NCBI GenBank assembly: GCA_036925085.1
Contig: JAUPFP010000006.1
Span: forward strand, 4,119,131-4,183,130
Direction: 5' to 3'
Length of the DNA: 64,000 nt
DNA from: Brachycybe producta
Taxonomy: Eukaryota > Arthropoda > Diplopoda > Playtdesmida > Andrognathidae
Positions within the stretch are counted from its first letter, which is position 1; every line of letters starts with the position of its first letter. Shown here piece by piece: positions 9,626-60,175 of this stretch. The notes under the pieces are model-generated. The model was not told where the DNA came from. It was given only the letters and a program-made list of their open reading frames with translations, and did not search any database. The translations under genes and the position numbers were made by a program.

Positions 9626-9740
9626 ACAGGCATCTGTAGACAGCTTCAGAATTTCTTTGGTTCCGCCCTTTTATGAGCGTCAGACCAAATATCAACCAAT
9701 TAGAAATAAAAAGGGTGTGGCATGTGACATCAGACCAGTT
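9626..9740. mobile_element. Family G (MULE-like) MITE, one-sided copy
   Basis: Begins ACAGGCATCTGTAGACAGCT, then the shared core CCGCCCTTTTATGAGCGTCA and CCAATTAGAAAT. The right terminal repeat is missing. Its end module matches the complete copy at 59833-60024 but not those at 20822 and 21139. Confidence 0.75.
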
Positions 9741-17100: not shown

Positions 17101-19423
17101 CTCAATAAAGTTTAACATAAGAGTTAAAAATTTGCAATATTTCTTTTAAAAACAGAAGCACACTTTCCAAATTTTTGACGTTCCATTTGACGAACATCAA
17201 AATTAGCAAACTTTAAATATTGAAAAATAAACATATTTTAAAAATTAACATTTTTTCTTTAACTGGGTCTACGGGCTCAATATAAAAACGCGGCGATTTT
17301 TCGAAGCTATTTTGCGATGTAGCCTCTTAAAAGAAAAACAAAGCTAAAAGTGTATATGCAAAACAACAATTAAATTCTTTGTTCACTTTCTGACAACCAA
17401 TTAAATTAGTACTGCTCAAACTATCTAATGTGGAGGACCAGCAATTCCCCCCCACCTAATTTATAGGAACCGGTGCCAAATAAATGATATTGTTTTAGGC
17501 CCGATCCACATCAAGCTAACAAAACAGAAAATCAAGTGTTTCCAGACAAATTGGCGACAATTCTAAAACATTTCCGCGACTTTTGTGTTTCTTAAAACCC
17601 CTTCGCTAAACCTCAACATTTACATAAGTCTTCGAAATAATATGTTCAATATGAAGAAGCTTCAATCACAGTTTATTGGTAAACCCAATTCCCAAATAAA
17701 TATTTATATGAGATGGATTCGGCACCATGCTGTACGGAAACTTAATGGATTACTATTACTGCCTGTAGAAAATCGTATCACGCATATTTCCAAACACATA
17801 ATTGGTTAAGGAAATGAGTATACACGTAAAAATATTGATCCTCATAACAATGCTCACCACAAAGGTGCATATTTAGAAGATGTCCATCATGTGCAAGTTA
17901 TTTGCTATTTTTTTTATGTTTAATTATACATTTGTACTATTAACTTAAATTGACATGTGAATTAATTACTTATTCAAACATAAAAGCTTCCCCATTGGAG
18001 CCCAACCCCTTCATTAATACCAGCTTCTTGCACTATCCTAGCACTCAAGCCAGAATGTGCCTCCATTATGAACTCCAGCTTTTTGGATGTGAGCAACTCC
18101 TTCAGTTGTGTCGTTTTTTTAACCTACAACAGAATGGGAGAAAGAAAAAAACAAAATTCAAAGATGTTTTATTAATAAATATCCACATAAAAAGCTAAAC
18201 TTTTTACATTTTTACCATACATTCATGCCATACTCAAATTTGGTCTCCTCAAGATAGCAAGTACGTGAATTAGATAATTGCAGGCTTGAAAATCGTAGTC
18301 GGCAATATGGGCTCCAAATTGGGGAACAATATTCTAACATAGCTCTGACTATGGTAAAATAACAAGACCTCTTTTACATTTTCTTTACAATGTTTAAAAA
18401 GCCGTCCGACGTCACATGCTCCGCCCTTTTCAACGTTGAACCACACAACAAACCAATTCGAAGTTGCCGTTCGTCATAAAAAGGGCGGAGCCAACTTCTG
18501 TTTATCCCGTTTTCTAATTGCATGTACCTGTGGTTAGCTTTACTGACTGCATTGGTTAAGTGCTCTTTCCAAAGCATGTCGTTCGATAAGGTTAAGCCAA
18601 GATGCTTAAATTTATCAACATGGGTTAGCTGAACATCCCCCATTGTGTAAGCTGCCCTGCAAGGTTCCTGCCTTCGAGAGACTCGCATAACGTTACATTC
18701 AGTCAAATTTAGTTGTAGATGCCATGCAGAGCACCACTTTTTAACACTGGTAAGGTCCCTTTGGAGGATTTCAATGTCCTCAACGCCCCTAATCCTTTTG
18801 TACACAACAGCATCATCATCAGCAAATAAAACGCATCGTACTGCTGCACCTATTTGCCAGATCGTTTATGAACAAAAAAAAAAGCAGTGGTACAAGAATG
18901 CTACCCTGCCGTACGGATGCGATAGGATCACGACACTAAAAAAAAAATGCTCATTTTTGCCACTTTTCAAGAAAACGCTGCTAAGATTGGTGGTATTAAT
19001 TAAAAATTATATTTCAGTCAATCTAGTATAATTTTTGAGATATTAATTTTTTTTAACCGAAATTAATGAAAAATGACTGCGCAAAAAATCTAATTCCATT
19101 ACTCGATGCATGTGAAGTCAGTCTTACATCTTCGAAAAGGAGCTTTAGTATTCAGTTTAGTGTACAATTGGTTCTGAAGAACGGGTTTTACATGCCACGA
19201 GAATAAAATACTGCATTCCTATTGGCCAAAATCAAATGGAGCAACTCTACCCCCCCCCCCCCCCCCAACGACCATCCTCATCCTCCGGGTAAGATTGTCA
19301 AGCCATTACTGGTTGTATGGTATCGTATCGTTATAAACAACCTAACGAAGCCTGATACAATAGCAGTCTTACTTTTTGAAGTGAGGACGTAGAAAAAGCG
19401 ACATTTAGCCTCATCTTGTGCAT
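14073..19423 (-). CDS. PEPM: Phosphoenolpyruvate phosphomutase, eight coding exons, 308 aa
   Basis: PEP mutase converts phosphoenolpyruvate to phosphonopyruvate, the C-P bond-forming first step of phosphonate (2-aminoethylphosphonate, phosphonolipid) synthesis; it belongs to the isocitrate lyase/PEP mutase TIM-barrel superfamily. Coding exons (5' to 3'): 19373-19423, 18021-18123, 16402-16614, 16128-16228, 15194-15311, 15044-15123, 14297-14473, 14073-14156; they total 927 nt and all junctions are GT-AG and in phase. Motifs seen: [10 protein letters not shown] near residue 53, [10 protein letters not shown] with D98 and D100, the EDK-x4-NS signature (E127, K129, K133, N135, S136) diagnostic of the mutase versus lyases, R172 and H203. 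Each key residue is offset by 13 from the numbering I recall for the mussel enzyme, owing to a longer N-terminus. The first 17 residues ([17 protein letters not shown]) are basic and hydroxylated without acids, like a mitochondrial presequence. The acceptor just before the ATG implies an upstream non-coding exon. Confidence 0.96.
14297..14473 (-). CDS. PEPM: PEPM coding exon 7
   Basis: 59 codons, phase 0 at both ends. Encodes [20 protein letters not shown] and [11 protein letters not shown], the last barrel strands. Confidence 0.97.
14556..14864. mobile_element. Family E element, copy 2
   Basis: Shares CCTAA..ACTTTGGTAAAATTA, the TTAATATTTAATATTATTT block and the end GATTCGTCCCACCTCTA with 23549-23861. 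Contains an expanded minisatellite. Inserted into family D. Confidence 0.8.
14733..14840. repeat. 24-bp minisatellite in family E
   Basis: Unit GGATTCGGATTCGAGAACCT plus TTTA, repeated about four times with one-base variants. The homologous place in the copy at 23549 has a single degenerate unit, and the copy at 7402 has turned into a palindrome. Confidence 0.9.
15044..15123 (-). CDS. PEPM: PEPM coding exon 6
   Basis: 80 nt. Encodes [20 protein letters not shown] with H203. The donor is GTAAAC, and the upstream intron is only 70 bp. Confidence 0.97.
15194..15311 (-). CDS. PEPM: PEPM coding exon 5
   Basis: 118 nt. Encodes [20 protein letters not shown] with catalytic R172, then [16 protein letters not shown]. 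The donor is GTTTGC. Confidence 0.97.
15400..15680. mobile_element. Family K hAT-like element, partial
   Basis: Begins TTTAGAGTTTGGGATTTCGG with CCGCGGTTTTTC nearby. Internal parts (TTTTTGTACAAAACTTCATT, TAAATCAGTAACTGCTC) are shared with 51722-52045 and, in reverse, 41800-41990. It lies in PEPM intron 4. Confidence 0.6.
15683..15707. repeat. Poly-G tract, 25 nt
   Basis: Uninterrupted run of 25 G in PEPM intron 4; the run is on the strand opposite to the gene, so the transcript would carry poly-C. Confidence 0.95.
16128..16228 (-). CDS. PEPM: PEPM coding exon 4
   Basis: 101 nt. Carries the family signature [20 protein letters not shown], the active-site gating loop. The donor is GTTTCT. Confidence 0.97.
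16402..16614 (-). CDS. PEPM: PEPM coding exon 3
   Basis: 213 nt. Encodes [20 protein letters not shown] and the metal/substrate-binding [16 protein letters not shown] segment. The donor is GTAAGC. Confidence 0.97.
16645..17330. repeat. Family A foldback element in PEPM intron 2
   Basis: Left end decayed (AAAAATAACTTCAAAAAATC); right end GCGATGTAGCCTCTTAA. Both arms can be recognised, and the centre reads CAACACACTGGCGCACATG. Confidence 0.88.
17331..18020. other. PEPM intron 2 remainder
   Basis: AT-rich intron sequence. No repeat family assigned. Confidence 0.4.
18021..18123 (-). CDS. PEPM: PEPM coding exon 2
   Basis: 34 codons plus one base. Encodes [11 protein letters not shown] through [16 protein letters not shown], the first barrel strand and helix. 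The donor is GTATTA. Confidence 0.93.
18240..18935 (-). pseudogene. CR1/Jockey-like LINE reverse transcriptase fragment
   Basis: On the minus strand, in PEPM intron 1: a [16 protein letters not shown] motif, then FINDLAN, after a frame shift [11 protein letters not shown] (the catalytic FADD of reverse transcriptase), then [38 protein letters not shown] and, further on, EYCSPIWSP. Frame shifts, stops and a family G-like insertion (18402-18497) break it. A dead 5'-truncated non-LTR retrotransposon. Confidence 0.88.
18402..18497. mobile_element. Family G-like MITE core inside the LINE
   Basis: Contains GACGTCACATGCTCCGCCCTTTT, CAAACCAATT and CGTCATAAAAAGGGCGGAGC, the inverted G+C-rich blocks of family G. 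Ends are degraded. Confidence 0.6.
19250..19266. repeat. Poly-C tract, 17 nt
   Basis: Uninterrupted run of 17 C in the long PEPM intron 1. Confidence 0.95.
19373..19423 (-). CDS. PEPM: PEPM coding exon 1
   Basis: 17 codons from ATG (19421-19423) to AAA|GTAAGA. An acceptor TTTCAG ends at 19426, two bases upstream of the ATG, so the exon really starts at 19425 and an earlier 5' UTR exon is expected. It encodes the possible presequence. A second in-frame ATG lies three codons downstream. Confidence 0.85.
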
Positions 19424-20754: not shown

Positions 20755-21138
20755 AATCTCGTACCGTACTGCATCTCATTGGCGATAGCTTTGGTCAATT
20801 TGATTTGGGCCAATAGGAACAACAGGCAAGTGTAGCCAACACTAGCTTTTCGTTTGCTCCGCCCTTTCATGAGCGTCATCAATTTCTAATTGGTTTGTTA
20901 TTTGGTTTGATGTCACGTGCCCCACCCTCATCAATTTCTAACTGGTTGACTATTGGTTGACTTTGGCTCATAAAAAGACGGAGTAAACGAAAAGCTAGCG
21001 CTGGCTACACTTGCCTGAATAGGAACGCAGAATTTGATTTTTGCAGCATATAAAACCCGCTCTGCAGAATCTATAGTTACGCTAAACAAAATACTAAAGC
21101 CGCTTTTCGCTTGCAGTGTTGCCAGATGTACTTGATAA
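20755..21138. mobile_element. Family H repeat, split by family G
   Basis: GATAGCTTTGGTCAATTTGAT, CCAATAGGAACGCAG, GCAGCATATAAAACCCGCTC and GCTTTTCGCTTGCAGTGTTG are shared with 60040-60175, and partly with 21340-21585 and 60932-61135. Interrupted by the family G element at 20822-21018. Confidence 0.75.
20822..21018. mobile_element. Family G (MULE-like) MITE, AGTGTAGCC end type
   Basis: Ends ACAGGCAAGTGTAGCCAACA and its complement form a long terminal inverted repeat. The inner core CCGCCC..ATGAGCGTCA / CCAATTAGAAA is shared with other copies. Flanked by a 9-bp duplication ATAGGAACA (20813-20821) / ATAGGAACG (21019-21027). The uninterrupted family H sequence elsewhere reads CCAATAGGAACGCAG, giving an empty-site control. 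Confidence 0.9.
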
Positions 21139-21330
21139 ACAGGCAAGTGTGCTCAGCAAGATGCAGTCGTTTGCACTGCCCTTTTATGAGGAACGGCAAC
21201 TTATAATTGGTTTGTTATTTGGTCTGACGTCACATACCGCCATTTCCAATTTCTAATTGGTTTCTATTTGGTGTGACGCTCATAAAAGGGCGGCGCAAAC
21301 GACTGCATCTTGCTGAGCACACTTGCCTGT
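21139..21330. mobile_element. Family G (MULE-like) MITE, AGTGTGCTC end type
   Basis: Ends ACAGGCAAGTGTGCTCAGCA and its exact complement. The terminal module AAGATGCAGTCGTTTG is absent from the neighbouring copy although the core is the same. Flanks CTTGATAA / CTTAATAA suggest a target duplication with one difference. Confidence 0.88.
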
Positions 21331-21339
21331 CTTAATAAT

Positions 21340-21585
21340 ATTAATAAGAGTCCATTTTTAATTCTGGGGCACAGCCCCCAAAACCCCCTACAATAAGCTT
21401 AATTTAAAAAAACACCACTTAGTTACCGATATATACATGTACATATTATTAATTATTATTTTATTAATCCTGATATTCATAGCTTTTTTTTACGAATGTT
21501 CAGTTACTTTTATTGGGAAGAAATACTGCGTTCCTATTGGCGAAAATCGAATTGACCAAAGCTATCGCCAACGACCGCTCTGTAG
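21340..21585. mobile_element. Family H repeat, second fragment
   Basis: TCTGGGGCACAGCCCCCA, ATAAGCTTAATTTAA, TTTTATTGGGAAGAAATACT, CGTTCCTATTGGCG, AGCTATCGCCAACGAC; nearly the same order as 60932-61135. Confidence 0.7.
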
Positions 21586-21892
21586 TAGCGATTAGCGAAG
21601 GCTAAAAAGATGGCAGTGGGTCTGATGAGGAGGGCAAAGTGGAAAATCGATAACATTAAGTCTATGGGAATTTAGAAGCATCCATTAAATTTACTTCGTT
21701 TTTCTCGTTTAATAATCGAAATTTTCACTTTGACCTCTCATTTGTACTTTTAGAATAAAATATTTACTTTCAAAATCCCCAATTAGTTTTTCTATCTGAA
21801 TAATGGTTTAAAGTATGAATAAGAAAACGTACAGCGTAGAGCTGCAAGATTTATTAAAGTTAAATAAATACATGTTTTTTGACAACGTTATA

Positions 21893-22088
21893 CCTAGTAC
21901 ACACCTGATAATTTAAATGCATTTAAATAATAAACGTGTTCTACAGAGCCCTGCGAAGGGCAAACAAACAATATGTCGTCGAATTCAATTTATTCAGTTA
22001 ATAATCTGAAAATATTGAGTTAATACTTCAATATAATATAGAAATTATCGACAAAATATTTAAATATTTAACTCATGTGTGTACAAGG
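21893..22088. mobile_element. Family B MITE, copy 3 (internal deletion)
   Basis: CCTAGTACACACCTGATAAT to TCATGTGTGTACAAGG, about 100 bp shorter than other copies. Confidence 0.85.
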
Positions 22089-22095
22089 TATAATA

Positions 22096-22391
22096 CCTTC
22101 TACACACATGAGTTAAATGAATTCAAACTAAATGTGTTTAGGTGAATTATACGGAATCCCATTAAGTACATGAACAAAATAAAAATTGACTTTATTATTA
22201 ATATTTTAAATTGAAATTCTAAATCAATATTTTGTCAATAGTTTATATATTCTATTTAAGTATTAACTCAATATTTTCAGATTATTAACTGAATAAATTG
22301 AATTCGACGACATGTTGTTTGTTTGCCCTTCGCAGGGCTCTGTAGAACATTTATTATTTAAACGCATTTAAATTATCAGATGTGTACTAGG
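22096..22391. mobile_element. Family B MITE, copy 4, adjacent and inverted
   Basis: CCTTCTACACACATGAGTTA to CAGATGTGTACTAGG. Separated from copy 3 by only seven bases (TATAATA) and in inverse orientation. Confidence 0.85.
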
Positions 22392-22399
22392 TATAACCC

Positions 22400-22790
22400 T
22401 AATGATAGATGAGCTACAGTGGTGGGAATCACTGGCAAACCGTCGAATAGAGCAAAACCTTGCCCTACTTGAACGTCTTCTAACCAAAAAAAAAACATTC
22501 CATTGTTAGATGGTATCCCCACTAGAAATCCTCGTATAAGTAAGCATTGCCATTCAACGCCAATCAAAGAATTGCAAGCAAGAACTGATGCATATCTTTG
22601 GTCCTTTTTTCCAAATGTATTTAGACTACGGAACACTCTTCCTGCAAATAGTTCTGTGTTAAGACAATTTCAATTTGACAATGATGTCTAAAATCTAAAC
22701 GACAATCATTTGTGATCGGGAATTATCCCCACTGCCACATGGCTTTCGAGCTGAGTGCAGGTGTACCGAGTTGAATTGAAAGCTAAGAAT
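22400..22790 (+). pseudogene. LINE 3' end, CR1/Jockey-like
   Basis: Plus-strand frames resemble the C-terminus of LINE ORF2: ESLANRRIEQNLALLERLLT, then TRNPRISKHCHS, ARTDAYLWSFFPNVFRLRN, LPANSS. The 3' tail (GCCACATGGCTTTCGAGCTG, GTGTACCGAGTTGAATTGAA) recurs at 52530-52600 and in reverse at 55085-55170. Broken by stops. Confidence 0.8.
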
Positions 22791-22810
22791 CCACTGAGTT
22801 GGCGGGGTAA

Positions 22811-22917
22811 AGCGGCACGGCGCATATAGTTTATAAGATGTTCGTCCACTATGAATTGCGGCACAGCACATAGTTTGCAAGAAGAGGTCCATCCATCCAC
22901 GATGAAACGCGGCACAA
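22811..22917. repeat. Two-unit imperfect tandem repeat
   Basis: GCGGCAC..CATATAGTTT.. and GCGGCAC..CACATAGTTT.. units of about 50 bp, followed by a third GCGGCACAAG. Confidence 0.6.
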
Positions 22918-23188
22918 GTTGGTATTGCCCCCCCTCACACTCTGTCCTAGTATGCCAGTCTCATGTGGTTGACTTGAGAACATACGAAGATTTATATCTT
23001 CAGTGAAAATAAAAAGCTATGAATTTCCTAATCAAAGTTTGGATGCTTGAATATAATTATAAAGCCAATATCTATTTAGTCTGATACTATGATTATTGGC
23101 TATCCAAAAGTCCACTGCACTCTGGCAATGTATAACATAGAGAGACTATCTATTCTGTGACCAAACTATCCCATTTTTGATACATATA

Positions 23189-23377
23189 AGGCTAGGAACA
23201 CACACGCAACCCTCAGGTTAGCAATAGAGCGGTTGCACGAGTCACTACCATTGGTTTATGACAGCGCTCACTTTGAATATCAGTTGTAAGTGCGGGCGCT
23301 GTCATATAAAACCCTTGGCATTTAAACACGCAACCAAACTATTACACACCTGAGGATTGCATATGTTCCCAACCTAA
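23189..23377. mobile_element. Family P MITE
   Basis: Left GGCTAGGAACACACACGCAA with CCTCAGG; right complement GGTTGGGAACATATGCAATC with CCTCAGG. The centre contains GACAGCGCTC / GGGCGCTGTC. Single copy here. Confidence 0.7.
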
Positions 23378-23548
23378 TGCAACATGTCATAAAACAACAT
23401 GTTTCATTCAACTGTTTGAAGTTGTGAATTGATACCGTGTTTCACATCCAACTGCAAGGCATCATTGGCTGTGTCGGTTTCCCGTCCCAGACACTGATGC
23501 ATGTTTCAACGAGTGGATGACCATATCAATCATATCTTTTGTTTTAAC

Positions 23549-23861
23549 TAGAAATGGGCCATTCGAAACCTCAAATCTTGAAAAATATTCGAGTTAAGAA
23601 AACTGAAATCTTCTAACCTAAAAAACAATGTTAAAAACTTTGGTAAAATTAATTTTAACTCCATTAAGCAAGTATCACCAATGGATCACCTTGTGGCGAC
23701 CCTGAATGCCACACTTTTTTATTATTAATAATTTAATATTTAATATTATTTCATTTATTTGTATCTTCTTAATGAATAATATAGGATTCCTATACGAAGG
23801 CTTTGAAAAATTCAGGGTCAAATTTCGGATTCGAGAAAATTTAGGATTCGTCCCGCCTCTA
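23549..23861. mobile_element. Family E hAT-like element, copy 3, with target duplication
   Basis: TAGAAATGGGCCATTCGAA at the left and the complement of TAGGATTCGTCCCGCCTCTA at the right. Flanked by a perfect 8-bp duplication GTTTTAAC (23541-23548 and 23862-23869). Confidence 0.88.
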
Positions 23862-23869
23862 GTTTTAAC

Positions 23870-24843
23870 TGTTCAAGCACGTTCTGGCTACAAAATTCTA
23901 GGTCGGCAATATTCGGCATCGGCGCTTCATCTCCCTTAGAATATATTTTTAGCGGCGAGCGAAGCGAGCCAATCATCAAACATTTTCGCTCTTTTTTGAA
24001 TAACTTTTTAATTAATAATGAAACTTAATATAAAGGATAATATGAAGGGGATGTCGAAAAATAAAACTCGATGTTGGACAAGAAAAAAAAGGGGTGGAAT
24101 GATATAGGAAACAAAATAATTTAAATTAAATTCGTAATCATGGAGAGATGGAGAGAGAGAGAGAGAGAGAGAAATGTGGTTGAAAAATGAACTAAATAAT
24201 TGCCAAAATAATATTTTTTTTTTGTAAATGACTATTTACCAAGAACTCTACAAGAAACTATCCACTGAAAATAGAAAGTCGGACAAAAGACAGTATTATA
24301 CAACTGTACATACATATAACACTCCCGTAAGAACTGCATCATCATTAATAATAACAATTACAAATAATAACAAAAAAAATTTAAAAAAAAATCTAATTTT
24401 GGAGGTGACAATACCGCTCCTGAAATTCAAAAAAGAATAATTATCTACTCAAATAGCTGTATACACATTTTGAATTGTTAGTGCAATCATTAAACAATTG
24501 GGAAATACATATAAAAAAACAAAGAAACTTAAAATTTTGAAAGAAAAAAAAAAAGTATTGCTTCTCTACTGACCAGCAGCGAGGGCTGAAATTTAATTAA
24601 GATTTACCAAAAAAAAATTCGAACTTTAGGGCCAATTTTTTTCAAAAGTTAAAACCCATAAAGCAAATCAAGACATGAAATATTAGTATTTTTTGGTAAA
24701 ACGACAAAAATAATAATCAGTAAACGCGAATAACCGTTTTGAAATAAAACTTATATGAAACAAAAAAAAAAAAAAGAAGAAATTTAAGAAAGTAGCAGCT
24801 TAAAGACCAGCACAAATTACAATTAATAATATGGTTACAGCTA
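23870..24843. other. Single-copy-looking AT-rich sequence
   Basis: No coding region supported. A GA microsatellite lies at about 24150-24171. Could be untranslated sequence of an unseen gene. Confidence 0.35.
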
Positions 24844-25606
24844 TTAAGGGGCTACAACATCACAATTATTTCGAAAAATCTCTCCGCAAAAGAGCGCTAA
24901 CATCGTTTTTCTATTGAGCACATGGACCCAATGTTAAAGAAAAAAATGTTAATTTTTAAAATACACACAGTCGCGGAAATGTTTATTTTTCATATTTAAA
25001 GTTGTCCAATATTAAGTTTTCAAAGTGCAATGTGCACCTTAAATATATGCTGATCGAGTGATAGAATGACAAAAAATTGGTAAGTGCAGTTATATTTTTA
25101 AAAAACTTTCAAAATCGCGAATTTCTAACTCTTATGTTAAACTCCATTGAGTACGCGCTCGTAAGCAAAAAACATCCATTAAAATGTTGGTAAAAATACC
25201 TATTTTAAAAAACCACAGTGAAGCCAACACATTGGCGCACGTGGTGATTTTTTCCTGGTTTTTTTAAAATTATTTTACGATGTTTTTTGTTGCTTACGAG
25301 CGCGTACTCAACGGAGTTTAACATAAGAGTTAGAAATTCGCGATTTTGAAATATTTTTAAAAACATAACCATACTTATCAATTTGTTGTTATTCTATCAC
25401 ACGATCAGCATATATTTAAGGTGCACATTGCCGTTTGAAAACTTAATATTGGACAACTTTAAATATGAAAAATAAACAAATTGCCGCAACTGTGTATTTT
25501 AAAAATTAACATTTTTTTCATTGGGTCTATGAGCTCAATAGAAAAACGATGCTATCACTCTTTGCGGAGAGATTTTTCGAAGTAATTTTGTGATGTAGCC
25601 TCTTAA
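24844..25606. repeat. Family A foldback element, full length
   Basis: TTAAGGGGCTACAACATCAC to GTGATGTAGCCTCTTAA; both arms present. Confidence 0.9.
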
Positions 25607-26655
25607 GATAAATAAGCATAAAATATTTAAATACAATATAACTCAAAAGAAAAATATTGAGATATGAATAAGCTTCACAGAGCAGAGAAAAAAAAATTGG
25701 GAGCTGTTTTTTTGGTAATAATTCGTAATACTTTGTATAATTGAAACTAAAAATTGGAAAACACAAGAAACTGTTTCAATAAAGTAAACAACAACAAAAA
25801 ATGACTCATGGGATAGAGAGAATTGATGAGGTGAATAAGGTTCCACACTAATACAATTCAATTGAAAAAAAGGTCACTTATCCATCCAACTCGTTCTCTG
25901 GCCAAAAGAATCAATCCTCTCTCCACAACAATTTTCTTGAAGATTTTCTCCAAAATAACCACTTGTTAAACCAACCCATCACGTAAATATGGCATTTTGG
26001 ATGGAGAAAGATGACATTCATTTATTCTTTTTGTCTTTCTTTTCGTCTACTACGACAGCTAAATAAGGGAAAACGTTATTTAAAAGGAAAGGTAGTCGAA
26101 AAAAAAAAGAAAACAAAAAAAAAAGCATTAACTTTTTAAAAAAAGCAAAAACCTCTACTAAATTAAAGCGACTAAAACTAACAAAGAAAGCAATAAATAT
26201 TTAAAGCATATGTGTGTACCCAAAAACCACCAAACCTATACTCGAAATAACCTCAAGATCACTTACGGAAATGAGCTTTTCTTCTTCGAAATAAAATTAA
26301 TAATTTAATACAAAAAATTTAATAAGTAATCATCAATCCATAATAAAAAGTAATGCGTCTGAACACCAGTCATCTTGAGACTATGTCGAGTGTAGTAAAA
26401 ACGCCACACGACAATCCTAGCAATAATATATAAATGAAATGATGGTGCAAAAGTTTTAATTCATTTTAGTAATGGTATACAATATGACTAAATAAGCTAA
26501 ACGATATATGCACAACAGTTATTTCAAAAATAAAAATGAACAAATACTTTTGCAGCACCACATAAGAATTAAGAGCAAATTCAAATCAGAGCTTATTTCA
26601 AAAGCTTATTTTTGCTCAGCTTAGAAAAGCTTGTAAGACTATGGCATGTTACAAG
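25607..26655. other. Single-copy-looking sequence, no gene assigned
   Basis: AT-rich; no repeat family or exon supported. Confidence 0.35.
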
Positions 26656-26860
26656 TAGGCTTGCCACCTTTCCTCCTTTGTGGAGGACAGTTCTCCATTC
26701 GAAGGATATGTCCTCCGACCAAGACCGTCCTCCACGAAGGCAAACATGTCCTCCACACAATAAATTGTATAAAAACCTAAATTACGTTCATGGAGGACGG
26801 TCCTGACCGGAGGACAGTTCTTCCGAATGGAGGACTGTCCTCCAAAGGTGGCAAAGCCTA
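26656..26860. mobile_element. Family F hAT-like MITE, copy 2, with target duplication
   Basis: TAGGCTTGCCACCTTTCCTC to AAAGGTGGCAAAGCCTA, flanked by perfect GTTACAAG (26648-26655, 26861-26868). GGAGGAC / GTCCTCC motifs recur through the element. Confidence 0.93.
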
Positions 26861-27504
26861 GTTACAAGATCCACAATGTTTAGAAAACTAATAGTTTCAA
26901 GCAAGCATAAAAATGTATGCTCAGAAATAAGCCACGACTAAACGTATTGCAGCCAAAAGAAGAATGATTTTACTCCCCCCCCCCATTTCAAACAAACAGA
27001 CCATGCACCAACAAGACATAAACTAAACTGAACATTTTACAATTGGAACCCATGCAATGAACAGAGCACATGCAAAAATGAGGCATTTCTAAACTTTTTG
27101 CTTTCACTTAAATACTTTTTTCTTGAAGCAGCAGAATAATAAAGCTAAGCCATTAACTTAGTGTGTAACTTACAACTTCATAAGATGTTCTCAGCAGCAG
27201 AAACGCGTTTTCGTAAAGAAAAAAGGAAAAAAAGGAAAAAATTGAAAAAGAATTTTAACTCGTAAACTGTACTTACAAAACGGTTGTATGTAGTCGCCAT
27301 AACCTGTTGAATATACACTGCTAATCAATTACACACTGAAACGCTCACACGTTTGATCAAACAATTGGTCGAGCAGCTCAAGCTGATAGCATCACATAAA
27401 ATACTGCGATTAGCACAATATATAGCCTCTAACAAGCAACGCCTCCCACCCTGCTTTCAAAGCATATATGAGAAATTTTAAAAATTATAAACGATACTCT
27501 CTAC
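26861..27504. other. Mostly unassigned sequence
   Basis: No gene established apart from the weak candidate exon at 27277-27300. A C-rich run lies near 26975. Confidence 0.35.
27277..27300 (-). CDS. Candidate tiny first coding exon
   Basis: Minus strand: ATGGCG start in a reasonable Kozak setting (GTTATGG), eight codons MATTYNRF, then the donor GTAAGTA. It does not join in frame to PEPM exon 1. Without downstream exons this is only a pattern match. Confidence 0.25.
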
Positions 27505-27933
27505 TAGGGCTGTGGAGTCGATGGTGTCGTTCATTTTTTGTAGGAGTCGGTATAAAGTAAACGACTTCGAGAATCCAAAAAAAAAAAAAAAATGATTGAC
27601 CGAACATCAAACTTGAGTCTTAAAAGATGCCATATTGACGTGCCCTGAGATTACGCAAAATACCGCTCAAACCGCTACGGCTTTACCACCGACTCCAGGT
27701 ATCTGTGGAAAGATTATTTTCTGCTCTCCAAATTCGAGCATCGATGAAATCGAACATAACTGAAGCCATGCTATTTTTAAGAACCAATTCAATTTAAATT
27801 AAATTCGATTACAAATGTACAAATTATTTTTGAATAAATACATATGTTGATTTTAGTTTCAAATTTTTTTTATTTTTGTTTGTCAGACTCAAGTCGGAGT
27901 CAAACAATTATGTAACGACTCCACGCAGCCCTA
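27505..27933. mobile_element. hAT-like element
   Basis: TAGGGCTGTGGAGTCG at the left and CGACTCCACGCAGCCCTA at the right. GAGTCGG motifs lie inside. No clean target duplication. Confidence 0.7.
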
Positions 27934-28370
27934 CTCTACACATTTAAATGTTTAATCCCTTATATGATGGTGTAAAACCATTACACAAATGTGGTTTGCA
28001 CGAAATGTAAAACAAACCTCATGAATTTAAATCAAGTATTTAATTTGAAAAACTTTCCCTGAGAAATCCATGAAGATAAATAAAATTCATTAAAATTTTC
28101 AGATCTTTACAAGGATGTTTCATTTTCCTTTGTGCAACTACATTTTGATATGGTGTTAACAATCACCTAATAAAAGTACGACATTTTTTTGAGCCGAAAA
28201 ATGTTTACTAACAAGAGTGAGAGGCTGCATTGCGTCGTCGATTTCTACGGTAAGACGCGTGCTAAGAGGCAACCCATACCATTCACTCAATTGCAAAATG
28301 ATACATTTGTGCGCATAGCGTATATAAAAGCTATGCGGCTTTCTAGGCTGCAGACATTGGTTTCATAATC
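27934..28370. other. Unassigned sequence
   Basis: AT-rich; nothing supported. Confidence 0.35.
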
Positions 28371-28625
28371 CATATCGCACCTCGGCTGGAAGAGTGAGTG
28401 GCACAACTAAAAAAAACACTTTTTTGTGAAAATGAGTTTAAAGTTGCATTTTTTTTTCTAATCTGAATCTATTGTAGGGGAGCCAAATAAACCGATATTG
28501 TGAATAGTTAAAACGGTTTTTGCACTTGAAAAGCTCAGCAAAGTAAGCCATGGATCTTCCCTTAAATTTAAACTCATTTTCTCGAAAAAGTTGTTTTTTG
28601 TGTTGTGCCCCTCTTCCTGGCAAGG
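28371..28625. mobile_element. Family D MITE, copy 3
   Basis: CATATCGCACCTCGGCTGGA, AATGAGTTTAAAGTTGCATT, CGGTTTTTGCACTTGAAAAG, ending near CCCTCTTCCTGGCAAGG. Uninterrupted, so it shows the site into which family E inserted in copy 2. Confidence 0.8.
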
Positions 28626-29249
28626 TCTACATTTGGTATAATTGTCCAATATACAAAATGTATACCCAATTTTGCAAAATGAACATAAATTGGTCGAATC
28701 AAAAACGCGAATTGGATATCCACATTTCGTGTAATGAACAATTTACACCAAATGGATGCGACACAGATTTCTCAAAACCTTCCAAATCATGACTGATCAC
28801 CACTTACATTGTGAAAGCCAATCAGATGCAGTCCCATAATTATCAATGCAAAATCATAAAACAAGCTTTAGACTGAATGGACAAAACAGACTTCAAAGTT
28901 CAAAGCTTCACTATAAACTGTCAATATATGCAAAATAGCTATTAATTACAAAGTTTGTTTGACATGGAATGCTTGTCGCAAAAGCGTTTGCAAAGTTGAT
29001 ATCCAACTCAATCAAGACTGAGTGGCGCGTTTATACCTAATGAGGCAGCAAATGTCGCGTGATTTTGCGCCCCTAGTGTTCAACAATTGTGTACATTGAA
29101 ATTAATTTTAAAAAAAAACTAAAAATAACGCCCATATTAATGTATTGTGCCCTAGGCGCACCCTCCATTTCGAAAACCGTCAGTCTGTAATCACCACAAT
29201 AAATTTGTATAAAATAGATTAAATTGTAATAAATGCTATTTGCGTTACC
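28626..29249. other. Unassigned sequence
   Basis: No exon or repeat family recognised. Confidence 0.35.
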
Positions 29250-29639
29250 TAAAGGCTTGTAAACACTGGGATACTTTGTGACAACACAATGCCGCACGGC
29301 TATCGCGATACATTGTTGCTGGACAGAATACGAACACGAACAGAATACGATACAGTCCCGAAACATTGTTCCATGTCCCCACCTAAACTGAAAATCCTCG
29401 ATAAGATTTAAAGTTTTTTCAGTGGTCCACCATCTTGGATCCTACTCTTTTCAAAGTTAAAACGCAACTGAAGTTTTTGTTTATGTTTCCCAAAACGTCC
29501 GCATTTGCAATGTTTGCACAACTTTGTATGCGTGTTTTCCAGTCTGGTGGGGAAACCAGAAACTTGTTTCTTGACTGTAGCAAATACAGTCCCGAAACAT
29601 TGTTTCACCATAAAGTATCCCAATGTGTACTAGCCTTTA
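29250..29639. mobile_element. Family R MITE
   Basis: TAAAGGCTTGTAAACACTGG at the left; right complement TAAAGGCTAGTACACATTGG. Both ends continue GATACTTT. The motif ACAGTCCCGAAACATTGTT occurs twice inside. Confidence 0.75.
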
Positions 29640-29762
29640 CATTTCTAAGACAATTTCATTAGTACAATATGAATAATAATTGATTAAATATGGTTAATAG
29701 AATGATGGGAAAAAGAAGGGAAACAAAACCACACAAAAGACGAAGTTAGTTTTCAGTTTAAG

Positions 29763-30545
29763 ATGCTACATATCACAAAATTACTTAGAAAAATCTCCGT
29801 AAAGAGCGCTAGCTTCGTTTTTCTATTGAGCCCATAGACCCACTTGCTAAAGAAGAAACGTTAGTTTTTAAAAAACACAGTCGTGGCCATGTTTATCTTT
29901 CCTATTTAAAGTTGTCCAATATTAACTTTTCAAAGTGCAATGTGCACCTTAAATATATGCTGATCGAGTGATAGAATGACAAAAAATTGGTAAGTGCGGT
30001 TCTATTTTTAAAAACTATTTCAAAATCGTGAATTTCTAACTTATGTTAAACTCCATTGAGTACGCCCAAATAAAGAAAAACACATCCATTAAAATGCTCG
30101 TAAAAATACCTAAAAATAATTTTAAAAAACCACAATTAAACCAAAAGTGAAGCCAACACATTGGCGCACGTGCTCGTTTTTTTCTTCTGGTTTTTTAATT
30201 TTTTTTACATATTTACGAGCATTTTAATGGATGTTTTTTGCTTACGAGCACGTACTCAATGGAGTTTAACACAAGAGGCAGAAATTCGCGATTTTGAAAT
30301 AGTTTTTTTAAAATAGAACCGCCCTTACCAATTTTTTGTCATTATATCCCTCAATCAGCATATATTTAAGGTGCACATTGCACTTAATATTTGGCCAACT
30401 TTAAATATGAAAAATATAAACATGTTGCCGCGACTGTGTATTTTAAAAACTAACGTTTCTTCTTTAACATCAGTCTATGGACTCAATAGAAAAACGATGC
30501 TAGCGCTCTTTGCGGAAATATTTCGAAGTAATTACGCGATGTAGT
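29763..30545. repeat. Family A foldback element
   Basis: GCTACATATCACAAAATTAC to TACGCGATGTAG; the extreme ends are altered but both arms are present. Confidence 0.88.
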
Positions 30546-31122
30546 AATGTAGTAAGTAAATCGTCCTGTAAAAAAAAATTAAACTCAAAACCCTTTTTTT
30601 TTCTCATAGTTTTACTCAGCCGGCTATTTTTCTTCTTCGAAGTATACTTGTTTAGATATTACAATATTGTGAAAGTATTTTTTTTTAAAAAAAAGTTATT
30701 TTACATGAGTCACTAAAAAATAAATAGTGAGTTTCGAGTCTCGGCAGCATGCTTTCGTTGTGATGCGACCATTCGACAGCCATATATCTTATAAATTCGA
30801 AAAGCTGCATACACACATTTACATTTGGGTTCAAAGATTGAAAGAAGAAAAAAAAAATACTAATTCTGTACAACGGGTAGTTAGAAGAAAGTTATAAAGA
30901 CAATGGAATTTTGTTTTTTTTCTCTTAAAAATGTTAGTATATTTAAACATATAAATAGAAAGATTAGACCATTAGACTTGAACGCGTTTGCTGTATTTTA
31001 CAATAAAGGTCTTATCCAAACTACACAACAGTATTCTCAATATTCACCCGTTCTTTTGCTTCACACGCACATGCAGACCTTATTTTCTCTCTCTGTCTTT
31101 CATATATTTATATGTAAGATAT
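30546..31122. other. Unassigned sequence between two family A copies
   Basis: T-rich; no supported gene. Confidence 0.35.
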
Positions 31123-31895
31123 TTAAGAGGCTACATCACAAATTTACTTAGAGAAAACTCCGCAGAGCGCTAGCATCGTTTTTCTATTGAACCCATAGAC
31201 CCAATGTTAAAGAAAAAATGATAATTTTTAAAATACACAGTCGCAGCAACATGTTTATTTTTCATATTTAAAGTTGTCCAATATTATGTTTTCAAAGTGC
31301 AATGTGCACCATAAATGTATGCTGATCGAGTGATAGAATGACACAAAATTGGTAAGTGCGGTTATATTTTTAAAAATTATTTAAAAATCGCGAATTTCTA
31401 ACTTTTATGTTGAACTCCATTGAGTACGCCCAAATAAGAAAAAAACATCTATTAAAATGCTCCTAAAAATACGTAAAAACCAGAACAAAATCAGCATGAG
31501 CGCCACTGTGTTGGCTGCACTGTGGTTTTTTTTTAATTTTTATGTATTTTTACGAGCATTTTAATGGATGTTTTTTCTTATTTGGGCGTACTGGGTGGAG
31601 TTTAACATAAGTTAGAAATTAGCGATTTTGAAATGGTTTTTAAAGATATAACCGCACTTACTATTTTTTTGTCATTCTATCAATTGATCAGCCTATATAT
31701 TTAAGGTGCACATTGCACTTTGAAAACTTAATATTGGACAACTTTAAATATGAAAAATAAACATATTGCTGCGACTGTGTATTTTAAAAATTAACATTTT
31801 CCCATTAACACTGGGTCTATGGGCTCAATAGAAAAACGATGCTAGCGCTCTTTGCGGAGTTTTTTTTGAAGTAATTTTGTGATGTAGCGCCTTAA
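31123..31895. repeat. Family A foldback element, full length
   Basis: TTAAGAGGCTACATCACAAA to GTGATGTAGCGCCTTAA. One of the best-preserved copies. Confidence 0.92.
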
Positions 31896-32964
31896 AAACA
31901 CAGCCCTGCTGCATGTCAGCAAAAAAAATTAATTAGTTCAAAAAAGAGTATGAATTCAAAAACTTGCAGTTCATAGTGACCCTAACGTGATAAAGATTAC
32001 GAGTACACGTACTATTTATATTGTAATGGAAAATAAAATTTGATCGTCAGAACTGCAATGACCATTCCCTCACATCAAAGCTTTTTAGGGGCTGACATAA
32101 TTCAGTAAATCTCTAAGACGGGTTAATAAGAAAAATATCTGCACAAGATATGCTCCCCCGTAAATGCCAATTCGCGCCGAAAACTCGCACGATGCATATT
32201 TTTTGTACCTCGAATGTAACCGAATCAGATATACAGAATTGAAACTCGTGATCTGAAAAGTATGTATGTATCCATGAGATTTTTAACCTTGCAATGTTAA
32301 GTCGCGTCGGGGGGGGGGGGGGGGGGGGGGGGGGGGAAAGAAAAGTTTGTCGAGTCCGAAACGGGCTGAACAACTTAACCGACAACAACAACTTAAAAAA
32401 TACCTTCGAGAACAAATGTGTTACTATCAAGTTACGATAGAGTAAGACTCCAGAAAAAAAACAATAAATAACTTAATATGCACATAACAGACAAGTAAAT
32501 CAAAGGCTTTGTGTGGTTTCCAATGATGGGATTCAGCTTGGTCATTATTACGTGAGTTTCATTTGTTGAACGGGGAAGGGGTGGGCGGAGAAAAAAGGCA
32601 ATCAGAAAGGTAAAGATGGACAAGCAAACAAATGTCAACAAAGGGTATCAAAGTTGCAAGGCACACCTCAGAATAAAAAAACAAAAGGTCAAATTTGCCT
32701 AAAACGTTCATTTCATATTTTTTTCTCTCAAAAACAAAGGACAAAGGGGAATATTATTATAACTAACAATATCCACACAATCCATTTTTCGGGGTAAATT
32801 AATTAATGTGTTGCACACGTTAGCTGCTTTTGGCAGACATTCTTTTTTTTTGTTTTATCAGTTCTCGTTATTTGAAAAAAAAAATATTTGCTGTTTCTCG
32901 TCCAAATAAAAGAAAACGGACATTCTCTCTCGGTACACACGCACACAATACACATTCCTTTAAC
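31896..32964. other. SERCA 3' flank / likely 3' UTR
   Basis: Downstream of the SERCA stop. No canonical AATAAA was found here on the minus strand. Contains the poly-G run at 32309-32336. An alternative last exon could lie here but none is demonstrable. Confidence 0.4.
32309..32336. repeat. Poly-G tract, 28 nt
   Basis: Uninterrupted run of 28 G downstream of SERCA. Confidence 0.95.
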
Positions 32965-57035
<24,071 letters not shown>

Positions 57036-57543
57036 GACTACGTTTCGAAGTCACAATTCAAATTAACAGTGGGGTCGTGTATTCTGATTCAAGAACGACT
57101 GACGGCACAGAAAAAAACGATCTCTTTTTTATTTCTTCTCTTCTTTCTTTTCTTCTTCGTTCCAACTTAAAACAAATCGGATTAACCTTGAAAACAAAAA
57201 AACACAAGAAAGTTTTTGTTATTTGAGTATATATATATCCAAAATGAAGCTAGTCTTAAAATATACTTTAAATAGAAAACGTTCCAACACAAAACGGATT
57301 CGGTTTCAAGTAGCCTATTTAAACAATATACGCAAAAAAAAAAGGGATTCAGAAAATCAATCAAAACTGTAAACAATATTTAAAAAATGACTTTTTCGGT
57401 TTCAATGAAAGCCAAAGTTTGAACTCAATTTCCGTTCTTTTTTGAAAACTTTTTTACCATTAGAATTGTCACAACGTTTATTTGACAATGCCTCAAGATG
57501 TGTTTATTAACAGCTGACTTTCGAACTTTTCATTATTCTGCAT
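57036..57543 (-). promoter_or_regulatory. SERCA 5' UTR and upstream flank
   Basis: Immediately upstream of the ATG. TCAGTCGTTC on the minus strand near 57094-57103 resembles an initiator, and purine-rich sequence lies further upstream. Transcription start unproven. Confidence 0.3.
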
Positions 57544-58327
57544 TTAAGAGGCTAGACATCAAAAAATTCCTTCGAAAAATCTCCGCAAACAGCGCTAGCA
57601 TCGTTTTTCTATTAAGCCCATAGACACAATGTTAAAGAAAAAAATGTTAATTTTTAAAATACACAGCAGTCGCGACAATATGTTTTTCATATTTAAAGTT
57701 GTTCGATATTAAGTTTTCAAAGTGCAGTGTGCACCTTAAATATATGCTGATCGAGTGATAGAATGACAAAAAAATTGGTAAGTGCGGTTATATTTTTTAA
57801 AAACTATTCAAAAATCGCGAATTTCTAACTTTTATGTTAAATTCCAAATACGAAAAAAACAGCCATTAAAATGCTTGCAAAATACCTAAAATGGTTTTAA
57901 AAAACCAGAAGAAAAAACAGCACGTGCGCCAATGTGTTGGCTGCACTGTGGTTTTTAATATTTTTAGGTATTTTTACGAGCATTTTAATGGATGTTTTTT
58001 TTCTTATTGGAGCGTACTCAATAGAGTTTAACATACATAGAAGTTATAAATTCGCGATTTTGAATTAGTTTTTAAAAATAAAATTGCACTTACCAATTTT
58101 TTGTCATTCAATCACTCGATCAGCATATATTTAAGGTGCACATTGCACTTTGAAAACTTAATATTGGACAACTTTTAAATATGAAAAATAAACATATTGC
58201 CGCGACTGTGTGTATTTTAAAAATTAACATATTTTTCTTTAACATTGGGTCTATGGGCCCAATAGAAAAACAATGCTAGCGCTCTTTGCGGAGATTTTTC
58301 GAAGTAATTTTGTCATGTAGCCTCTAA
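57544..58327. repeat. Family A foldback element upstream of SERCA
   Basis: TTAAGAGGCTAGACATCAAA to GTCATGTAGCCTCTA; full length. Confidence 0.9.
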
Positions 58328-59260
58328 AAAGACAAAAAAACTTCTGGTGGGCTACCGCCACAATCAAAAGTAAAATCGTGCATTGTATTCTACTTTCAAA
58401 TCAGTAAACAGGAATATTTCCGCCGAAAAATAACGTAAAAAAAAACAAACAAACAAGACAATGAAAATTCTAATAATAGAACTTCAAAAGTGTTTTTTTT
58501 CTTGTTGAGAAAAATACATAACCCAAACAAGTCACTTTTCGTGCGTAAATTACGCGCGTTATTTTTACTCAGAAACTCGAAATAAGACTAATATTTGAGC
58601 GTGGAATGTAGCGCCATCTAACGAACACCAATTAAAACTAAAAACAGTTTTTTTTTTCATTCCTTGACGTCGTCATTGATCGAATCGGAACCTTATCTTT
58701 TTATTTTTAATTTAATTCGTTCAGTTTTTTCTTTCTAATTTGCAACAAATAAAGATATAATTTTCATTGTTTCTAATCTCTTTCTTATTCCGTTGATCTA
58801 TAAGAATTTAACATTTTCCAAAACGAAAATGAGAAACCGAAAGCGAGAACGGAAGTACATCGAATGTCACTTCCCCCCCTTCATTAGAATAAAGAGAAAA
58901 ATCCTCCTCACCCCCCCCCCCCCCTCTCCAAGAAAGAACACATACCAACCTCTATACTATTCTTCTCCTTTGAATATTGTCACCTGATTTTTGGTTAGAA
59001 AAGAGAACGGAGATGCGAACTACTTCCTCACTGCGTCCGCGAACAGAAAAAATAAACTTCGAACGGGCACGGTAAAAAAAGAAGAAATGAACCGGACTAA
59101 CATGCTGCTTCCATCGAACTATTGTTACGTGGTGAAAGAGAGAGAGAATAGAAAGAAAAATCGTCGATCTACGCATGTGTTCTAATGTCATTGGTGCATA
59201 CAAGTCACGTGACCAATGCGGAGACGGTTTGTATGACGTTTTTCCGTCGAGCAACAGCAA
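58328..59260 (-). promoter_or_regulatory. Possible distal SERCA promoter / 5' UTR exon region
   Basis: Single-copy-looking with more CpG than its surroundings (59020-59250). A perfect E-box palindrome GTCACGTGAC lies at 59205-59214. Minus-strand CAG|GTGACA near 58983 could be a donor of a non-coding first exon. A poly-C of 14 nt lies at 58911-58924. Speculative. Confidence 0.25.
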
Positions 59261-59264
59261 AGTA

Positions 59265-59675
59265 GGGACGGCAAAATTCGTTTGTTGAATCGATTCGAAT
59301 ATGAATCGAATCGGATGTTTCGATTCCGATTAATAATCGGAAAATTAACCCATTCGATTTTTATAACATAAGGGTGGAACTGGGAAATAAAACTAATTTT
59401 TTTTTCTTTATATAAAATCATTAAAATGATGTCATGATTTTGCTAAAAATAGAATAATCAACGGATTGAAACTTGAAAAAATAACAAAACCAAATAACAA
59501 TAAAAAAGCAGAAAAAGAAAAACACTAATAAATGGGGAATTTTTTTTATTTATATTGTTTATTTATATGAAATAAATAAAATTGAATTGGCTTGATTTGA
59601 ATCGATTCACTCGATTAATCAAAAGGTGTCGAATCGATTCAATTAATCGAATTGGAATCTGGCATCATTATAGCA
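59265..59675. repeat. Repeat rich in GAATCGATTC motifs
   Basis: TTGAATCGATTCGAATATGA at one side and GTCGAATCGATTCAATTAAT at the other, with roughly inverted ends (GACGGCAAAATTCG / GGAATCTGGCATCA). Probably a decayed DNA transposon. Confidence 0.5.
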
Positions 59676-59832
59676 AACCCATAACATACTGAGGGGAAAA
59701 CCGATGTTAAACGTCTGCGTTACGGTATCCGCAACGGCATTCCTAATTCATTGCTACATCCGTGACATTGATTTAGAGGTGGAAGTCGGCGTCGTCGCCC
59801 ATGAATTTTGGTCGCCAAACGCCGCCGCCGAT

Positions 59833-60024
59833 ATAGGCATCTGTAGACAGCTTCAGAATTTCTTTGACCCCGCCTTTTTATAATCGTCATCAATTTTTAA
59901 TTGGTTTGTTACTGGGTCTGATATCACATGCCCCGTCCTTTTATTTCTAATTGGTTGATATTTGGTCTGACGCTCATAAAAGGGCTGAACCAAATAAATT
60001 CTGAAGCTGTCTACAGATGCCTGT
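59833..60024. mobile_element. Family G (MULE-like) MITE, complete, CATCTGTAG end type
   Basis: ATAGGCATCTGTAGACAGCT to AGCTGTCTACAGATGCCTGT, flanked by a perfect 9-bp duplication GCCGCCGAT (59824-59832 and 60025-60033). The core ATGAGCGTCA / CCAATTAGAAAT is shared with copies that have different ends. Confidence 0.94.
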
Positions 60025-60039
60025 GCCGCCGATTACAGG

Positions 60040-60175
60040 CCGTTGGCGATAGCTTCGGTCCATTTAGCCAATAAGAAAGGAGTATTTTATTGTTGCAGCA
60101 TATAAACCCCGCTCTTCAGAATTCTAAACAGAATACTAAAGCTGCTTTTCGCTTGCAGTGTTGCCAGATGTACAG
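60040..60175. mobile_element. Family H repeat, third fragment
   Basis: GGCGATAGCTTCGGTCCATT, GCAGCATATAAACCCCGCTC, GCTTTTCGCTTGCAGTGTTG. It lacks the family G insertion seen at 20822, so it shows the empty site. Confidence 0.72.

Follow-up and report, generated by a model that had tools for sequence, protein, structure and literature searches.

A stretch of 64,000 nucleotides from the millipede Brachycybe producta (contig JAUPFP010000006.1, positions 4,119,131 to 4,183,130; below, the window) holds copies of a short transposable element in which a core lies between two arms of 37 base pairs (bp). The two arms of an element match each other as an inverted pair, and different elements carry arms of different sequence types on nearly the same core. 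They are best explained as a single large family of hairpin-forming elements that are non-autonomous and depend on a transposase acting in trans; the joint reading, in which one arm has at rare times also been copied onto the other, stands for us at an even balance of belief and doubt. The relevant features of the window are these:

9626-9736, plus strand: cut-off element: left arm of type C (9626-9662), incomplete class I core, right arm missing
18404-18525, minus strand: truncated element: G1 arm with its tip at 18525, incomplete class III core
20813-20821: left target duplication of the element at 20822, ATAGGAACA
20822-21018, plus strand: complete element, type A1 arms at both ends (20822-20858 and 20982-21018), class I core
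21019-21027: right target duplication of the element at 20822, ATAGGAACG, one difference from the left
21139-21330, plus strand: complete element, type B1 arms at both ends, a GATGCAG variant in both arms
59824-59832: left target duplication of the element at 59833, GCCGCCGAT
59833-60024, plus strand: complete element, type C arms at both ends (59833-59869 and 59988-60024), class I core
60025-60033: right target duplication of the element at 59833, GCCGCCGAT, identical to the left
60043-60173, plus strand: family H copy, the uninterrupted (empty) site for the insertion at 20822

The original prediction named copies at 9626, 20822, 21139 and 59833, with three terminal types among them. All four copies and all three types are present, and the list proves incomplete: it missed the truncated G-type element on the minus strand, which sits inside a reverse-transcriptase-like reading frame. 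The core pattern has five matches in the window at up to three mismatches (mean 0.00 in shuffled sequence); about 74 bp of core remain in the copy at 9626 before it ends abruptly near 9736. The proposed empty site is confirmed by alignment: the family H copy aligns with both flanks of the element at 20822, and the duplicated stretch is present there once. Around 21139-21330, the target duplication is degraded. Folded as a single strand, 59833-60024 forms a hairpin of -41 kcal/mol, against -14.1 in shuffles (z -8.9).

The assembly that contains the window spans 295 Mb in 442 contigs. A 20-mer from the core, allowed two mismatches, has 8702 matches in it (4438 forward, 4264 reverse) and its reversed control none; one element may yield two matches, so this is not a count of elements. 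(Between 18.9 and 21.4 Mb of G000:C1, nearly all core matches among those listed lie on one strand, the pattern that a large duplicated array bearing the element would give.) From fetched loci, numbered here with an L, 116 complete elements with both arms were parsed. The sample is not random: some loci are the first exact 20-mer matches along contig C1, others were chosen by core similarity (of 1032 candidates, 40 were scored and 30 fetched), and the rest are neighbours that were included incidentally. The elements are mostly about 190-208 bp long, some of them 134-145 bp, and follow one plan: a 37-bp arm, the core, and the arm inverted. The core is about 120 bp long, except that types F and G have about 132 bp and some copies about 68, and its first 20 or so bases are themselves repeated in inverted orientation. 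Short, non-coding, bounded by terminal inverted repeats and a target duplication, and present in high copy number, these are miniature inverted-repeat transposable elements (MITEs).

Eleven arm types were defined (A1, A2, A3, B, C, D, E, F, G1, G2, and H), with B2 as a further variant. Their consensuses all have length 37, align without gaps, keep ACAGGCA at the tip, and differ pairwise at 2 to 22 of the 37 positions. The three terminal types of the window are distinct and, in each of the three complete elements there, inverted-paired as proposed, and they are related to one another; the idea of arms as unrelated "modules" was dropped, since all types align gaplessly over 37 bp. The core is likewise near-constant only within a class. 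Genome-wide there are three core classes: class I goes with arm types A, C, D and E; class III with F and G; and types B and H have a class I core on one side and class II on the other. The one clear exception is L101, with a G1 arm on a class I core; that of L027 is formal only, its core being class III on inspection. Several arms, mostly with broken inner sequence, match none of the three classes.

Both ends carry the same coarse arm type in 111 of the 116 elements, as compared with a mean of 23.1 and a maximum of 37 in 2000 shuffles, and the same fine type in 108 (shuffled mean 21.3, maximum 35). That every complete element has matched ends, as originally claimed, holds for the three in the window and very nearly, not strictly, for the genome: five elements have ends of different coarse type.

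The arms of different types have diverged far more than the cores between them. Between A and C, consensus arms differ at 15 of 37 positions and cores at 3 of 120; between A and D, at 8 and 0; between C and D, at 12 and 3; between A and B, at 11 and 8; and between F and G2, at 8 and 4 (Fisher p 1.4e-8 to 1.2e-3). Among elements picked by the exact 20-mer alone, the A-C core difference is still 3. Cores of types A and D cannot be told apart in the full set, where 256 of 1000 permutations equal or exceed the observed value; in the 20-mer subset they separate weakly (46 of 1000). Taken alone, this disparity fits either sped-up arms or a held-back core, and does not decide between them. Inserted type C copies, however, decay at similar rates in both parts: 5.1% in arms and 7.3% in the core middle for 15 elements picked by exact 20-mer, and 4.9% and 4.1% for all 33, some of which were chosen for core similarity. 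Arms are therefore not simply faster-mutating in resident copies, and the disparity arises in source lineages.

A second line of evidence concerns variants shared by the two arms of one element. Among variants found in exactly two arms of their type (doubletons), 10 of 58 lie in both arms of a single element, where 1.77 are expected (Poisson P ~2e-5). Shared deviations, counted in 106 of the 111 concordant elements (types E and H had too few), exceed all 1000 permutations in types A (43, maximum 36), F (12, maximum 11) and G (31, maximum 24), and do not in types B and D; much of the excess in A, F and G is subfamily structure. Four paired variants, those of L042, L027, L073 and the type B element of the window, were checked against the whole genome. 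The exact strings of L042 and of L027 each occur twice only, in the element's own two arms. A relaxed search around L042 (up to three mismatches) found two relatives whose own arm pairs are each identical within the pair.

Third, a few elements combine the arms of one type with the core of another. Cores were compared for 101 of the 116 elements, those with equal coarse types and a core of 100-142 bp. Nearest core neighbours mix types A and D (15 A elements have seven D and seven A neighbours), and five of eight D elements have a type C core as their nearest. Three marks set type C cores apart from A and D cores. L009, one of eight D elements, carries all three marks in the core between its two D arms; L054, one of 36 C elements, lacks all of them between its two C arms; L094 and L035 show partial sets. 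L101, with its G1 arm on a class I core, is a further discordant element. L009 is harder to explain without an exchange. Mosaic structure within arms, sought among 112 arms of exact length 37, gave only a weak hint.

These observations, together with the hairpin fold, suggest a model to which we lend about as much credence as doubt: rare copying of arms in source lineages, followed by amplification of matched pairs. The arms, above all positions 8-34, would have radiated into at least eleven types on a core that hardly changed within its class, with both arms of a lineage changing together. Occasionally, we infer, one arm of a source element was copied onto the other, through a hairpin or through gap repair with the other arm as template; the probable occasion is replication or repair linked to transposition. 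In this way a change, or an arm acquired from another type, would become a matched pair. Only matched pairs would then be amplified, because the transposase must bind both ends.

Several results weigh against this model. None of the 24 type C doubletons is paired within one element, as compared with 10 of 34 in the other types; the 38 type C elements show 4 shared deviations where permutations give 5.5, and none is private to an element. The variant of L073 is not private (three genome matches), nor is the GATGCAG variant of 21139-21330, whose 54 matches mark a subfamily. The 3-bp insertion of L042 also occurs in relatives at up to three mismatches, which leaves no more than one or two private changes among its paired ones. 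By chance, about 0.07 single coincident changes are expected per type C element, and isolated paired cases therefore carry little weight beside the doubleton count. In the 20-mer subset the A-D core difference rises to 14 columns, of which 11 are one gap, with only four type D elements. L054 may be the ancestral state and not a recombinant. Finally, in 78 of 101 elements the most similar core belongs to an element of the same arm type (in shuffles, 21.5 on average and 37 at most), and arm type and core class are nearly exclusive, as in simple subfamilies. Because arm type and core mostly agree, core and ends share much of one tree, with very different branch lengths.

That agreement keeps weight with an alternative that is possible, if on the whole doubtful: old subfamilies, in which arm types diverged by ordinary substitution, ends became matched only rarely, and selection held the core, for example at sites for host factors or the transposase, with no exchange at all. 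The single gapless frame of the arm types fits it, and the core does hold CCAAT, GGGCGG and TGACGTCA-like words, seen directly, which we take to be candidate host-factor sites. Yet the core is not immune to change, because class I and class III cores have diverged too (p-distance ~0.38, part of it misalignment), and yet between A, C and D only 0-3 positions of the core differ, with 8-15 differences in the arms. Subfamilies alone also leave L009 and the matched changes in both arms, the doubletons, unexplained.

Less probable is recombination between tip-to-tip neighbours of different type, which would swap single arms, with selection by the transposase restoring pairs and no copying from arm to arm. 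The elements do cluster: facing tips of neighbours number 3.70 per kb within 20 bp, 1.68 at 20-60 bp, 0.71 at 60-200, 0.39 at 200-500, and 0.33 at 500-1000, about 11 times denser at the shortest range than at the longest. Neighbours frequently differ in type, which brings different arms side by side (in this comparison L011, L017 and L052 were skipped as overlaps, and L113-L121 omitted), and the five elements with ends of different coarse type also fit this reading. Nevertheless, replacing both arms takes two exchanges with the same donor type, element-private paired variants are left unexplained, and movement of mixed-end elements finds no support: L039 and L022 lack a clear target duplication. 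Tip-to-tip elements of different types, often a few to 20 bp apart, occur for example at L065, L084, L060 and L013; such clustering may reflect either insertion that favours existing copies or hot spots that the elements have in common.

Continuous gene conversion that keeps both arms of every resident copy identical is very improbable: many elements do have near-identical arms, but type C arms carry 2.7 deviations each, independent between arms, with no private shared variant in 38 elements and no paired doubleton among 24, which largely refutes it for type C.

Type C is the largest group and has no paired doubleton, so resident copies do not homogenise measurably. The original suggestion of gene conversion or hairpin-templated turnover of the ends thus survives in part. 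The paired doubletons, the two private strings, the arm/core disparity of types A, C and D, and the discordant L009 and L054 speak for it; conversion as a continuous process in resident copies is not supported. Rare copying of arms in lineages, as distinct from an ongoing process in copies, is partly supported.

The 9-bp target duplications noted in the window, perfect around 59833-60024 and with one difference around 20822-21018, prove to be general. Among 115 elements, the 9-bp flanks match perfectly in 26, with at most one mismatch in 45, and with at most two in 59; pairs of flanks from different elements (13225) gave 2, 5 and 39. Perfect duplications are most frequent at 9 bp: 26, where comparison over 8 bp gives 8 and over 10 bp gives 2. 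Mutator-like elements (MULEs) make duplications of 8-11, usually 9 bp, so that MULE is our best guess at the superfamily. Duplications of this length also occur in some other superfamilies. The long terminal repeats of MULEs (typically 100-500 bp) are absent here, where the arm has 37 bp and the inner repeat about 20, although such length is not required of animal MULEs or MITEs. Nor are the ends long arrays of short tandem motifs, as in Foldback elements, the arms being single 37-bp units. L034 is an exception: at 2503-2861, adjoining a complete element, it has at least eight tandem 51-bp units, each a G1 arm with the start of a core.

The label "MULE-like" rests on the duplication, and no transposase could be tied to these ends. 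PF10551 has 21 matches in the genome, and in the stretches examined no member of the family that encodes a transposase between such arms was seen. The nearest approach is L102, an open frame of 736 amino acids with a MULE domain, whose best database match (36% identical) is named from the spider Trichonephila clavata and the second from a firefly. An E-type arm lies at its 3' side (C89:405969). In the stretch examined, from C89:402686 rightward, no matching left arm was seen; were the MULE bounded by these ends, the duplication expected beside an E-type left arm is GAATTTTGC. The 3' junction is unique genome-wide, with a full match at one place, and the related copy at L101 matches the first 117 of its 153 bases only.

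Coreless arms, those whose next six bases are all off the core, were tried as a mark of an autonomous element and rejected: the genome has only nine of type C and one of type A. Type E has 85 at up to one mismatch, 25 of them exact, and one is the arm beside L102, with its unique junction. (At G000:C18:167979-168050, two E-type arms face each other with a few bases between, perhaps an element almost without a core.)

Copies of one MULE transposase gene adjoin these elements at L101, L102 and L105 (G000:C89 and C43). In the copies at L101 and L102, the 5' homology boundary has a MITE end some 8-9 bp away; the third copy, L105, has an E arm nearby, and E-type arms accompany two of the copies near the 3' side. 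This is read as clustering, not as proof of partnership. L115-L121 (G000:C89, C5, C2 and C38) hold MULE genes that are nearly identical (~99.5% or more), arranged as inverted pairs that have long inverted repeats. These are a recent foldback-like MULE, and the arms described here are absent from the stretches scanned.

Once its transposase is lost, a non-autonomous element is dead as well, unless its two ends have changed in concert. A more speculative extension of the copying model, which we hold only tentatively, is that the elements change their transposase "address": both ends would be rewritten through transposition-coupled repair, the core kept, and the lineage passed to another transposase. 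If so, the core would be a long-lived passenger that outlasts its transposases. With thousands of copies, many matched end types, and one core in one genome, the frequency of such end changes becomes countable, as does whether arm is copied onto arm, and whether copying goes with movement or with residence in the genome.

In searches limited to open-licence PubMed Central, no paper listed gave a direct match to an exchange of matched ends around a constant core. Three known systems come near it. The Tm1 Mutator/Foldback family of root-knot nematodes has 9-bp duplications, composite terminal repeats built of motifs, and short MITE-like members that outnumber the transposase-coding one (PMC3169594). 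The millipede elements share the duplications, the composite ends and the MITE-like members; they differ in their short arms, fixed at 37 bp, with many matched types on a shared core, and in that no transposase-coding member was found. MULEs with multiple terminal inverted repeats (TIRs) have duplications of 9-11 bp and extra or tandem terminal repeats, the ends of plant MULEs being typically 100-500 bp (PMC3310237). Tandem terminal repeats recur here as the 51-bp arm units of L034. Those MULEs, however, vary in the number of repeats, whereas the variation here is in matched sequence types on one core. For Pack-TIR elements in animals, gap filling or fork stalling and template switching has been proposed (PMC8277862). 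There too, a repair or template-switch process tied to transposition would rewrite part of a DNA transposon; in Pack-TIR elements, though, the interior is captured and the ends stay, whereas in the millipede family the ends change and the interior stays.

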